In this document: positions 58,134 to 61,742 of the stretch, in pieces
Layout: each line of letters begins with the position of its first letter
Position numbering within the stretch: position 1 is the first letter of the stretch
Assembly (NCBI RefSeq): GCF_900109465.1
Contig: NZ_FOAZ01000005.1
Coordinates: 80,473 to 144,472 of the forward strand
Direction of reading: 5' to 3'
Origin: Streptacidiphilus jiangxiensis
GTDB lineage: Bacteria > Actinomycetota > Actinomycetes > Streptomycetales > Streptomycetaceae
Length of the DNA: 64,000 nucleotides
Position numbers and translations under genes: made by a program
Notes under the pieces: model-generated
What the model was told of the DNA's origin: nothing
Seen by the model: only the letters and a program-made list of their open reading frames with translations
The model's database searches: none

Positions 58134-59483
58134 TCAGCCCAGGCCGAACCAGCCGAGGACCGTGTCGACCAGCAGGACCGTCGACATCGTGGCCACGCCC
58201 ACGACCACGACCGTGGCGGCGATCCGGAAGCCGCGCTTGTTCGCGTGCTCGCCCAGCAGGCTGCGGCGGTTGGTCAGGATCAGCAGGTAGACCAGGACCA
58301 CGGGGGTGATCAGGCCCTGCAGCACCTGGGTGCCGATCAGCAGCTGGATCACGTCGATCGGCGTCATCGCGACCACCGCGCCCAGCGCGATCTGCGCGGT
58401 GAACAGGGTGAGGAAGAACGGCGCGTCGCGGAACGAGCGGGAGACCGAGCGCTCCACTCCGGCCGCCTCGCCGATCGCGTAGCTCGCCGAGAGCGGCACC
58501 ACCGCACCGGCCAGCGCGGAGGCGCCGATCAGGCCGAGCGCGAAGAGCAGCTCCGCGCTCTGCCCGGCGACGGGTTCCAGCGCCTTGGCGGCGTCCGCGG
58601 CCGAGTTCAGCGGACCGGTGCCGCCGATGGTGGTGGCGGTCGCGATGATGATCGTCAGGCTGATGCAGCAGGCGAAGACCGCGCCGATGATCGCGTCGGC
58701 GCGGATCAGGGGGTAGTCGATGGTGCGGGTGCCGCGGTCGACGACGCCGGAGGCGGCGTAGAACTGCATGTAGGGGCTGACGGTGGTGCCGATCAGGGCC
58801 ACGGCCAGCAGGATGAAGTCCTTGTCGCCGCTCAGGTGCGGGATCGCCAGGTTCTTGCCGACGGTGCCCCAGTTCGGCTTGCCCATGATCATCGCGATCG
58901 GGTAGGCGAAGAAGACCAGCGACATCACCAGGAAGATCCGCTCGGCGTAGCGGTAGGAGCCGAACAGCACCAGCCCCCACAGCAGCAGCGCGGCAGGCGG
59001 GATGATCGCCCACTTCGGCACGCCCAGCAGCTCGAAGCCCGCGCCGATCCCGGCGAACTCGGAGACCACCAGGCCGGTGTTGGCCAGCAGCAGACAGCCG
59101 AGCGCCAGGCCGGTCGCCCGCAGGCTGAACTGCTCGCGGATCAGCGCGCCCAGCCCCTTGCCGGTGAAGGCGCCGAGCCGGACCGCCATCTCCTGCACCA
59201 GCACCAGGGCGACGGTGACCAGCACCATGAAGAAGAGCGTCCCGTAGACGTACTGCGAACCGGCGCTCGCATAGGTGGCGATCCCGGCCGCGTCGTTGCC
59301 GGCGTTCGCCGCGACCAGGCCCGGCCCGGCCACGCCCATCAGGGCCACCAGTCGGGCCCAGCGGTTCCAGCGGGTGATCCGGCCCAGCACCGGTATCCGG
59401 GCCAGCCGGCTCGCCGGCAGTGCGCCCACGCCTTCCGTGGCACCGGCGGCCTCGGCCCGGCTCCTGTCGGTCTCGACGGTCAC
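58134..59483 (-). CDS. NRAMP-related permease with altered metal site (probable Mg2+ uptake)
   Basis: A 449-residue transporter with about eleven helices, related to NRAMP/MntH. In helix 1 the metal-binding DPGN is replaced by Asp64-Ala-Ala-Gly (GNDAAGIATYASAGSQYVYG), keeping Asp but losing Asn. In helix 6 the MPH motif is Ser236-Pro-Tyr (GTTVSPYMQFYAASG), losing the sulfur ligand and the His. Loss of the soft Met ligand points away from Mn2+/Fe2+ and towards Mg2+, as in NRAMP-related magnesium transporters. GTG 59483 overlaps by 4 nt the gene for an MgtE-type regulatory protein, supporting that reading. Confidence 0.82.
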   Translation of the reverse strand: MTVETDRSRAEAAGATEGVGALPASRLARIPVLGRITRWNRWARLVALMGVAGPGLVAANAGNDAAGIATYASAGSQYVYGTLFFMVLVTVALVLVQEMAVRLGAFTGKGLGALIREQFSLRATGLALGCLLLANTGLVVSEFAGIGAGFELLGVPKWAIIPPAALLLWGLVLFGSYRYAERIFLVMSLVFFAYPIAMIMGKPNWGTVGKNLAIPHLSGDKDFILLAVALIGTTVSPYMQFYAASGVVDRGTRTIDYPLIRADAIIGAVFACCISLTIIIATATTIGGTGPLNSAADAAKALEPVAGQSAELLFALGLIGASALAGAVVPLSASYAIGEAAGVERSVSRSFRDAPFFLTLFTAQIALGAVVAMTPIDVIQLLIGTQVLQGLITPVVLVYLLILTNRRSLLGEHANKRGFRIAATVVVVGVATMSTVLLVDTVLGWFGLG

Positions 59484-60901
59484 TGCAGGAACCTCCGGAA
59501 GTGCAGGCGGCCCCGGGCGGGCAGCAGGTAGTCCAGGACGTCGTCGGCCAGGATCCGGCCCACGGGACGTCGTTCGTCGTCCACGACCAGGAGCGAGGAC
59601 GCGCGCGAGGCGACCAGTCGCTCGGCCACCTCGCCGAGGCGGGCGGTGGCGGCCACCGCTTCGTCCCGGGTGAACTGGCTCAGCCAGTCCGCGACCTCGC
59701 CCATGGTGGTGCGGTCCTCGGCCACGGCCAGGTCGAACAGCGGGATGTCCGCCAGCAGCAGGCCGTCCTCGGTGACCAGCGCCACCGCGTCGATCTCGGT
59801 CCGGTGCTCGGCGGAGGTCGCCAGCTCGGCGCGGATCTCGCCGACGGTCTGCTCCCGGCGCGCGGTCACCAGCGTGGTCGTCATCGAGCCGCCCGCGGTG
59901 TCCTCCGGGTAGGCGAGCAGCTCGCGCAGCTGCGCCGCCTCGTCGTCGCCGATGTGGGTCAGCAGCTGCTCGCGCTCGTCGTGCTGGAGGTCGCGCAGGG
60001 CCTCGGCGGCCTCGTCCGGCTCCATCTCCTCGACGATCCGGGCGGCGCTCTCCGGCGGAGACTCGCGCAGCAGGTTCTCCAGCTCGGCGGGCTCCATCTC
60101 CTCCAGCGCGTCGGCGGCGTGGGCGGGGTCGAGCATGGCCAGCAGCTGCTGGCGCTCGGCGCGGCCGAGGTCCTCCAGCAGGTCGGCGAGCTCGGCGGGG
60201 CGCAGCCGGTGCAGCGCGGAGCGGGAGGCGTTCAGCTTCACCTCGGCCGGGCCGTCGGTGGCGTTCTCGGCGAAGGGGGCGACCGTCTGCCAGTCGACCA
60301 CACGATCGGGTGTCGCTCGCGTCTGCCAGCGCTTCGGGCCGAGCCGCCGCAGGAGGGTGGGGAGGCTGACATCGACACCGACGAGCAGCACGCGGCCGCC
60401 CACGGGCGCCAGGTAGAGGTCGGCGGCGCGGTTCACCTGGACGCCGTCCACGTCGACCAGTTGGTGGTCCAGCACATCGCGCCCGAGCAGCACCTCGCCG
60501 GGGCGGCGGACGAACTCACTGAGATCCATCCGGGCGCTCTTGAGCTGCACCCGGTCGGCGTGGATCTGGCCGATGGCGGAGGCGGTCAGGAACGAGCGGC
60601 GGCGTCCGACGCGGACGACCAGACCGGTGACGGGCGGGTAGGGCTCGTTGCCGTACAGCCGCGCGACGACGTCGACGACGCGGCCGACCTCGTCGCCCAC
60701 GGGGTTGAGCACGGGGCGTCCGGTCAGGCCGGCCAGGGAGACGAGCGCGTCCCGGACCGTCTTCGACGCGGTGGCCTGACGCACGAGCTGGACGCGACGG
60801 CCGCGCAGCTTGGCCGTGGTGCTCATCAGCAGCGCGGACGCGCCCGGTCCGGCGGCGGAGCCGGACGTGCGCGTGGTCGAGCGCGAGGTGGTGGAAGCCA
60901 T
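59480..60901 (-). CDS. Stand-alone MgtE_N/CBS regulatory protein
   Basis: A 473-residue soluble protein: PRC-barrel-like region (about 60-200, VGDEVGRVVDVVARLYGNEPYPPVTGLVV and repeats), MgtE N superhelical domain (about 255-360, LHRLRPAELADLLEDLGRAERQQLLAMLDPAHAADALEEMEPAELENLLRE) and paired CBS domains (about 362-465, AGGSMTTTLVTARREQTVGEIRAEL and VDDERRPVGRILADDVLDYLLP). It has the Mg2+-sensing cytosolic half of MgtE without its pore, and is coupled by a 4-nt overlap to the NRAMP-like permease, which it probably gates. ATG 60901 is chosen; 285 bases of leader precede it. Confidence 0.85.
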   Translation of the reverse strand: MASTTSRSTTRTSGSAAGPGASALLMSTTAKLRGRRVQLVRQATASKTVRDALVSLAGLTGRPVLNPVGDEVGRVVDVVARLYGNEPYPPVTGLVVRVGRRRSFLTASAIGQIHADRVQLKSARMDLSEFVRRPGEVLLGRDVLDHQLVDVDGVQVNRAADLYLAPVGGRVLLVGVDVSLPTLLRRLGPKRWQTRATPDRVVDWQTVAPFAENATDGPAEVKLNASRSALHRLRPAELADLLEDLGRAERQQLLAMLDPAHAADALEEMEPAELENLLRESPPESAARIVEEMEPDEAAEALRDLQHDEREQLLTHIGDDEAAQLRELLAYPEDTAGGSMTTTLVTARREQTVGEIRAELATSAEHRTEIDAVALVTEDGLLLADIPLFDLAVAEDRTTMGEVADWLSQFTRDEAVAATARLGEVAERLVASRASSLLVVDDERRPVGRILADDVLDYLLPARGRLHFRRFLQ

Positions 60902-61001: not shown

Positions 61002-61097
61002 CTACCGGCGCGGGGCGGTCGACCTCGTGCGGCGGGAGAAGGCGATGGACGGTTTCGGTGCGGGGTGGGGCCGACTATGGCCCGGACTACTGTCCAC
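61002..61097 (-). CDS. Proline/arginine-rich leader ORF of the Mg-transport operon
   Basis: A 31-codon ORF, GTG 61097 to TAG 61004-61002, preceded by a very strong Shine-Dalgarno GGAAGGAGG (61104-61112, 6-nt spacing) and ending 100 nt before the MgtE_N/CBS gene. The peptide has alternating prolines at positions 10, 12, 14 and 16 (PHPAPKP), then SIAF and an Arg-rich end (SRRTRSTAPRR). A proline-every-second-residue pattern is the hallmark of the Salmonella MgtL leader peptide, which senses Mg2+ through ribosome stalling. A cis-acting regulatory leader is the best reading; a small functional protein is less likely. Confidence 0.68.
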   Translation of the reverse strand: MDSSPGHSRPHPAPKPSIAFSRRTRSTAPRR

Positions 61098-61189
61098 TGT
61101 TCGCCTCCTTCCGGTCGGGACGCCGTAGGTGCGGGACGCCGCAGGTGCCGTTGACACAATGACAGCTCGACACGGTGGCAACCGGCCGG

Positions 61190-61195
61190 ATTCTA
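61190..61195 (-). promoter_or_regulatory. Candidate -10 element of the Mg-transport operon
   Basis: On the minus strand TAGAAT lies about 290 bp before the MgtE_N/CBS gene and about 90 bp before the leader ORF. No good -35 is seen at 16-18 bp. If used, it gives a long leader containing the proline-rich ORF. On the opposite strand a TTGACA at 61151-61156 could serve the YccF gene but lacks a clear -10. The rest of 60902-61340 holds no other gene that I can support. Confidence 0.4.
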
Positions 61196-61340
61196 CCCAG
61201 GTGGAGCACAGGCACGCCATCAGTCCAGCTCCGGGGCGGGTAAGGGCTCGAGTGGCGGCCTGCCCGGCGGGGAACCAGACTGGCTCGGACGGGCGTGTAG
61301 CCGAGTGGACGTGTCGGCATCGACGACATCGAGGAGAGAC

Positions 61341-61742
61341 GTGAAGCTGATCAACTTCGTCCTCAACGTCATCTGGCTCATCTTTGCCGGGCTGTGGATG
61401 TCCATCCTCTACGTGCTGGCCGGCATCGTCTGCACGATTCTGATCATCACCATCCCGTGGGGCATCGCCTCGTTCCGGCTCGCCGTCTACGTGCTGTGGC
61501 CGTTCGGTCGCACCACCCGGGTACGCGACGACGCGGGCGCGCCCTCCTGCGTCGGCAACGTGGTGTGGCTGGTCTTCGCCGGGTGGTGGCTCGCGCTCGG
61601 CCACCTCACCACGAGCATCGCCCTGGCCTGCACGATCATCGGCATCCCGTTCGCCTGGGCGAACCTGAAGATGATCCCGATCTCGCTGATGCCGCTCGGC
61701 CGCGAGATCGTCTCGACCGACCAGAGGTTCGCGGGCTGGTGA
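61341..61742 (+). CDS. YccF-domain inner membrane protein
   Basis: A 133-residue protein made of two YccF (DUF307) modules: FVLNVIWLIFAGLWMSILYVLAGIVCTILIITIPWGIASFRLAVYVLWPFGRT and VGNVVWLVFAGWWLALGHLTTSIALACTIIGIPFAWANLKMIPISLMPLGREIV. Four helices in two pairs. GTG 61341 has a GAGGAGAG site just upstream. Family function unknown. Confidence 0.9.
   Translation: MKLINFVLNVIWLIFAGLWMSILYVLAGIVCTILIITIPWGIASFRLAVYVLWPFGRTTRVRDDAGAPSCVGNVVWLVFAGWWLALGHLTTSIALACTIIGIPFAWANLKMIPISLMPLGREIVSTDQRFAGW

Follow-up and report, generated by a model that had tools for sequence, protein, structure and literature searches.

A leader open reading frame with a conserved N-terminal core ahead of an MgtE-N/NRMT-like operon in Streptacidiphilus and its relatives, with and without an M-box

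In Mycobacterium tuberculosis, the M-box riboswitch of pe20 controls a conserved upstream open reading frame, uORF2, in a leader that combines a translational platform with Rho-dependent termination (PMC12810186; here and below, the parts of that paper available to us). The uORF2 group (Rv1805A, Rv1535A and Rv0115A) is described there as specific to mycobacteria, and one member, Rv0115A, is a homologue free of any M-box. In enterobacteria, the short leader peptide MgtL of mgtA causes ribosomes to drop off at its EPDP motif when Mg2+ is low, whereupon the RNA changes and Rho cannot act (PMC11282234, in the portion consulted). At the level of the genes controlled, most NrmT genes have an MgtE-N-like gene as their neighbour, frequently with an M-box ahead (Shin 2014, PMC4072509, likewise in part). 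The leader ORF considered here is conserved, so far as sequence comparison indicates, in many actinobacteria, with or without an M-box, and what is conserved in it are the ten codons at its start, not a pattern of prolines.

The operon lies on the minus strand of a 64,000-nucleotide stretch of Streptacidiphilus jiangxiensis DNA, referred to as the window. Its first gene (59480..60901) encodes a protein of 473 residues with MgtE_N and CBS domains (Pfam, 6.7e-23 and 7.9e-8) and overlaps by 4 nt an NRAMP gene of an NRMT-like (Mg2+) type (58134..59483; Pfam Nramp, 9.3e-80). The best PDB match of the NRAMP protein, at 310 bits, is 7qia, which we take to be the NRMT of E. lenta; the next entries, MntH, score no more than 72 bits. 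Its metal site aligns as DAAG and TTVS, without a methionine. NRMT Mg2+ transporters are characterised by DxxG and TxxA/T and by the lack of the methionine in the section of PMC8806188 drawn on; DAAG fits DxxG and the methionine is absent, while TTVS has Ser where A or T is stated. A gene resembling the MgtE N-terminal domain stands beside the NRAMP gene, as in NRMT operons. What a preliminary description had called a split magnesium transporter operon is, by Pfam, PDB match and Shin 2014, no split MgtE but an MgtE-N-like gene paired with an NRMT-like NRAMP gene. This pair was already known, so it is the leader ORF that needs explanation: unlike the MgtE-fragment/NrmT operons of PMC4072509, which have the same gene pair and often an M-box, the window operon has none, and the parts of that paper available to us mention no leader ORF. 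The covariance model of the M-box (RF00380) found no match at the gathering cut-off between 58000 and 64000, and none up to E=5 between 60850 and 61500. Beyond the leader ORF lies a divergent YccF-family gene (61305-61742), whose start is so close that a complete M-box would probably hardly fit between the two.

The leader ORF itself (61002..61097, minus strand; MDSSPGHSRPHPAPKPSIAFSRRTRSTAPRR) consists of a GTG start at 61097, 31 codons in all and a TAG stop. It is preceded by the Shine-Dalgarno sequence GGAAGGAGG (61104..61112, minus strand), with a 6-nt spacer, CGAACA, and its stop lies 100 nt before the ATG of the MgtE_N/CBS gene at 60901. These elements had been recognised in the preliminary description and are confirmed, as is its account of the peptide, with prolines at positions 10, 12, 14 and 16 followed by I18-A-F20 and Arg-rich residues. 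A candidate -10 hexamer of the operon promoter, TAGAAT (61190..61195, minus strand), is common to the four nearest Streptacidiphilus leaders (L001-L004), and the leader length of about 285 nt proposed earlier is compatible with it. By eye, a 16-base near-repeat, CACCTRCGGCGTCCCG, is seen in two head-to-tail copies at 61116-61147, directly upstream of the Shine-Dalgarno sequence.

Conservation was followed in the best 80 of 126 ortholog loci from a protein search with MgtE_N. Among these, 43 are close Streptomycetaceae orthologues (L001-L039, L043, L044, L050 and L073), giving 44 with the window; they were picked by protein orthology, independently of the presence of a uORF. The other 37 comprise 36 loci from outside Streptomycetaceae and a diverged copy from Streptomyces, L079 (52% identity). 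L079 has neither uORF nor M-box and was kept out of the 44. All 44 have a GGAGG-like Shine-Dalgarno sequence, a start codon (34 ATG, 6 GTG, 4 TTG) and a peptide core with the consensus M-D-S-S-P-G-H-S-(R/Q)-P, with few exceptions; L023, whose uORF fell outside the initial search pattern, is counted among them. In the 40 peptides with no inserted codon before P5, residues D2, S3, P5, G6, H7 and S8 are invariant (40/40), S4 and P10 are kept in 39/40 and R9 in 36/40. In four loci from Kitasatospora a codon is inserted after M-D, and in L007 one is inserted at a later point, the frame being kept in each case; L007 was excluded from the hairpin-2 and profile counts below. Beyond the core the C-terminal part drifts, the length ranges from 23 to 44 residues, and between 4 and 529 nt separate the uORF from a gene start chosen by script.

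An alignment of leaders across Streptomycetaceae had been proposed as the test of the preliminary description. The start, the Shine-Dalgarno sequence and the N-terminal peptide are indeed kept while the 3' half varies, which bears out a leader ORF that is conserved, looks translated and is associated with genes for Mg2+ uptake; the alternating prolines are not kept. The P-x-P-x-P-x-P pattern occurs in 1 of 44 sequences, that of the window, and prolines 12, 14 and 16 are found in 11, 3 and 3 of the 40 ungapped peptides, window included. The conserved prolines are P5 (40/40) and P10 (39/40), within S-S-P-G-H-S-R-P. In the window this core, codons 2-10, D-S-S-P-G-H-S-R-P, is encoded at 61068..61094 (minus strand) as GAC AGT AGT CCG GGC CAT AGT CGG CCC. 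Over 39 sequences, the minor-letter fractions at the three codon positions of codons 2-10 are 0.003, 0.009 and 0.046, and changes from consensus amount to 16 synonymous and 4 nonsynonymous cells; codons 11-22 vary at all three positions (0.284, 0.256, 0.207). At the level of sequence, this shows coding constraint on the first ten codons. Not all of the family has the operon with its leader ORF: when up to two mismatches are allowed, the nucleotide pattern of the core is found in 16 of 150 Streptomycetaceae genomes, once in each.

The M-box comes and goes around this conserved ORF. Directly upstream of the uORF, 27 of the 44 close orthologues have an M-box at the Rfam gathering cut-off, the one in L024 only just (44.9 bits). 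The remaining 17, which include L011 with its M-box about 1.1 kb away, have no adjacent M-box, and all 17 keep the uORF, its Shine-Dalgarno sequence and the peptide core. At the level of sequence, then, the uORF is retained in leaders lacking a recognised M-box aptamer. On the MgtE_N protein tree, parsimony asks for 10 changes of the M-box label, or 9 if counting starts from the rows that lack one; 6 are forced by the well-supported branches alone. Losses account for at least some of these changes, because L009, L010 and L014 retain, by eye, M-box-like pieces below the cut-off; others could be gains, or weak copies that fall below it. L073 also has an upstream cobalamin riboswitch (816-1037), with which its M-box, uORF and MgtE_N gene share a strand.

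The adjacency in 27 of 44 loci, together with the M. tuberculosis precedent (PMC12810186, in part), is what one would expect if the uORF were a mere translated output platform of the M-box, its peptide irrelevant and the window copy a relic. Persistence of the Shine-Dalgarno sequence and peptide core in 17 of 17 operons without an adjacent M-box, and the fact that the core is the most constrained part, make this reading unlikely. It is also at odds with the other 37 of the best 80 of 126 ortholog loci, in which no M-box reaches the gathering cut-off (0/37) and 32 nevertheless have a Shine-Dalgarno-led uORF, of a different sequence class (L059, L066, L072, L079 and L080 have none). In this second class, the motif [EQ]-P-[PH] appears close to the start of 31 of 32 uORFs, the exception being L064 with GDIPHS; typical cores are M-x-x-G-E-P-P-S-S, MSPDQPPST and MKPSEPHST. 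The best hit of a profile of Streptomycetaceae cores coincides with none of the 32 second-class cores, and these uORFs are kept apart as either analogous or too diverged.

That profile, 18 nt long, was built from 10 distinct Streptomycetaceae cores, the window's included, and its best hit was sought in 420 nt. At the level of the class, M-boxes were found in 17 of 296 genomes (30 matches; L081 and L098-L126). A short Shine-Dalgarno-led uORF follows 28 of the 30, and 27 of the 29 outside Streptomycetaceae, some 50-160 nt beyond the aptamer; L116 and L121 keep a Shine-Dalgarno sequence after the M-box and show no standard uORF start codon at the expected place. The genes behind these uORFs, named from their translations, are NRAMP-, CorA-, MgtE- and PE/PPE-like, among others. 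In the 27 uORF-bearing loci outside Streptomycetaceae, the best profile hit falls inside the uORF in 25 and at codon 2 (19) or codon 6 (3) in 22, the hits of L111-L113 lying elsewhere within it and those of L104 and L110 outside it. By shuffles, 18 of the 27 reach p<=0.05, all at codon 2 or 6; the weaker hits inside a uORF are those of L099, L103, L107 and L111-L114. The closest matches are the CorA-like loci L105 and L106, the former agreeing by eye with the Streptomycetaceae consensus at 16 of 18 bases. In a family judged mycobacterial by its PE/PPE-like genes (f4/g20), the cores read, for example, MSPGDSPYP and MSSSDSPDR, most with a proline at position 7.

The window uORF thus appears to share the core of an actinomycete family of M-box uORFs, to which Rv1805A would belong. 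The equation with uORF2 is suggested by layout, by proline 7 in most loci and by PE/PPE-like neighbours rather than by published peptide sequences. Like the M-box-uORF2 arrangement in the available parts of PMC12810186, the family has a strong Shine-Dalgarno sequence, a short ORF after the M-box, Mg2+-linked genes downstream, a conserved N-terminus with proline 7 and an M-box-free homologue. The window uORF departs from uORF2 in belonging to Streptomycetaceae, in lacking the M-box, in the MgtE-N/NRMT-like operon that follows it and in the additional codons at its N-terminus ahead of S-P-G-H. We found no description of this uORF outside mycobacteria, and no paper joining the M-box riboswitch with Streptomyces, in the open-licence PMC literature.

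The window uORF has no M-box; its paralogue in the same genome does. The single M-box of that genome, at L081 (1..1669; G000:C76), is followed by the uORF MDCSPSPGHKRPHDTRLTSSSSGMR, which begins MDCSPSPGHKRP, and then by another NRAMP gene; this locus and the MgtE_N operon are the only two places in the genome with the combination of Shine-Dalgarno sequence, start and core. Of 14 genomes from the genus, 13 carry M-boxes, and in all of 21 further loci a short ORF with an S-P-G or similar core follows. The set includes two repeats (L162 of L156, L170 of L169) and two copies of the MgtE_N operon itself (L155, L157). Its exceptions are L150, with a weak Shine-Dalgarno sequence, L163, which reads SGPGR, and L156 and L162, which read SSPHP. 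In L163, judged by eye from the translation, M-box and uORF stand ahead of a gene resembling MgtC/SapB. Among 23 M-box loci deeper in the phylum (L127-L149), only four have, by reading, a uORF-like start (L129, L134, L144 and L147), and the best profile hits fall away from these. L131 has a match (p 0.015) some 22 nt downstream of its M-box, where a longer frame reads F-P-G-H-S-G, and L132 one (p 0.010) away from uORF-like starts.

The core codons are under additional constraint at the nucleotide level. The rare codon AGT accounts for 128 of 136 serine codons in the first 11 codons; further along the ORF it is used for 0 of 169, and in the downstream gene for 14 of 652. Two hairpins can be drawn on the minus strand. 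The first, a candidate beginning at the G of the start codon (GGAC-AGTA-GTCC, 61084..61095), has stem columns that are invariant in the 42-sequence alignment, so that no covariation signal is possible; its arms can be read by eye, with longer loops, in most of the B-operon uORFs inspected. The second (GGGCC-ATAGTC-GGCCC, 61068..61083) has one informative pair, next to the loop-closing pair, and there a compensatory change is seen. In 22 distinct segments this pair is C-G in 11, T-G in 3, T-A in 3 and G-C in 1, with 4 unpaired (G-G 3, C-C 1). It is formed in 18 of 22 segments, against 4 of 22 on a shift of +1, +2 or -2 and 15 of 22 on a shift of -1; owing to the -1 shift, the control is not clean. 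In L152, L154 and L166, GGT is matched by CGA with Gly and Arg unchanged; all three belong to one genus and may represent a single event. For the whole structure, the covariation score in the 42-sequence alignment is no better than that of column shuffles.

These features invite the suggestion that the core is an RNA element, namely tandem hairpins or a site for a protein or the ribosome, with the peptide a by-product. The AGT bias is what this would predict, and so is the compensation in hairpin 2, which is in part synonymous. In-frame insertions and the exchange of ATG, GTG and TTG at the start point instead to translation; covariation is confined to one pair, for which the -1 shift spoils the slide control, hairpin 1 is uninformative in this respect, and neither hairpin is evident by eye in the mycobacterial-type cores. 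The suggestion is accordingly judged improbable.

The reading preferred here, with a probability of roughly 0.6, is that of a cis-acting leader ORF which gates the Mg2+-uptake operon, partly through its N-terminal nascent peptide. Action in cis is likely, and whole-codon insertions that keep the frame and mostly synonymous change in the core speak for it; a part for the peptide is somewhat more probable than its absence, and sensing of Mg2+ is inferred. By sequence, relatives of the leader ORF are found ahead of Mg2+-linked genes. The leader ORF would be translated, and the progress of the ribosome would decide whether transcription reaches the transporter genes. Rho is the probable mediator, because a C-rich, G-poor stretch which could load it follows the core; this variable 3' part (codons 12-31; 61005..61064, minus strand) would be covered only by ribosomes that get past the core. 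Less surely, the core, with its Pro, Gly and Ser accompanied by Asp or His and its one or two small hairpins, may be an obstacle at codons 4-10, its passage depending on ribosome stability and hence on Mg2+. Where there is an M-box, the uORF might be the output gate of the riboswitch; elsewhere it might act alone.

Position, the company of Mg2+ genes and persistence without an M-box suggest that the window uORF could work like the M. tuberculosis uORF or like MgtL. As in mgtA, a short proline-containing leader ORF precedes an Mg2+ transporter, and the destabilising part of MgtL and the conserved core of the window both fall within the first ten codons. Unlike MgtL, the window's MDSSPGHSRP has D2 and two prolines, with neither EPDP nor alternation of acidic residues and prolines. 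For MgtL, the route is a drop-off of ribosomes that depends on Mg2+, a refolded RNA and Rho (PMC11282234, in part); for the window ORF such a route would be conjectural. The preliminary description had allowed for homology with MgtL; the window ORF is an analogue at most.

Several points weigh against the gating mechanism, among them the missing acidic-proline repeat and the restricted occurrence of the operon in the family noted above. If ribosomes simply masked a Rho site, their loss would silence the operon, the opposite of what uptake at low Mg2+ requires. In M. tuberculosis, the main termination site is upstream of the uORF (PMC12810186, in part). The C-rich 3' part also follows from Ser, Pro and Leu codons. 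C exceeds G there in 44 of 44 sequences, with a mean C-G skew of 0.198; the mean over 4180 windows from the downstream genes is 0.055, but 8.8% of these windows are at least as skewed as the 3' part. RNA refolding could correct the sign, and a helix between the Shine-Dalgarno sequence and the 3' part is a candidate, though it did not surpass its controls. RNAalifold pairs the former with a candidate anti-Shine-Dalgarno sequence inside the leader ORF, TCGCCTTCTCCCG (61033..61045, minus strand). Positional pairing is 96.4% compared with 47-64% when slid, but the mean duplex energy of -21.5 kcal/mol is no stronger than under synonymous resampling (-21.0) or with permuted codons (-20.1 kcal/mol). 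Covariation does not beat column shuffles save in cells changed on both sides (4 versus 0.9; 6 of 500 shuffles reach 4). Folding was also compared between a ribosome at codon 10 and one at the stop. The latter left the MgtE_N start, picked by script, the more accessible in 17 of 42, which is no consistent change; L009 and L036 had no gene start and were dropped.

A wider proposal is tentative, with the odds against it: an old actinomycete Mg2+ gate of peptide plus hairpin, placed downstream of and in series with the M-box, may repeatedly have been left alone after riboswitch loss, a separate EPP-type version doing the same job in Acidimicrobiia-like bacteria. The comparison suggests that the unexplained mycobacterial uORF may belong to a family spread over several Actinomycetes lineages. 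Harmless relatives of Streptomyces would make such a family accessible, among them natural strains in which the riboswitch has gone and the leader ORF alone is left; such M-box-free strains would separate the role of the one from that of the other. The leader ORF also offers a test of nascent-peptide control by Mg2+ outside enterobacteria.

A small protein acting in trans, for example on the transporter, has been proposed for Rv1805A by the mycobacterial authors (PMC12810186, in part), and the conserved N-terminus would suit such a role here. Only about ten residues are conserved, however, with the C-terminal part and the length drifting, and neither the AGT codon constraint nor the hairpin compensation is expected of a trans-acting peptide, which renders this explanation quite improbable. 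For the question of chance, an ORF was required to have GGAGG, a start, 15-50 codons and a core motif within 14 residues, the motif list having been drawn up after the peptides had been inspected. When the core motif was ignored, any Shine-Dalgarno-led ORF of that size was found in 70 of the 80 leaders on the coding strand and in 7 on the reverse. That the ORF arose by chance in a leader rich in GC, or is a piece of an MgtE_N gene extended upstream, its frame being open up to 61159, is scarcely credible given rule-matching ORFs in 68 of 80 leaders (best 80 of 126) on the coding strand versus 0 of 80 on the reverse, the variable distance to the script-picked gene starts, and ortholog matches whose first residue, numbered from the ATG at 60901, lies in the range 1-48.
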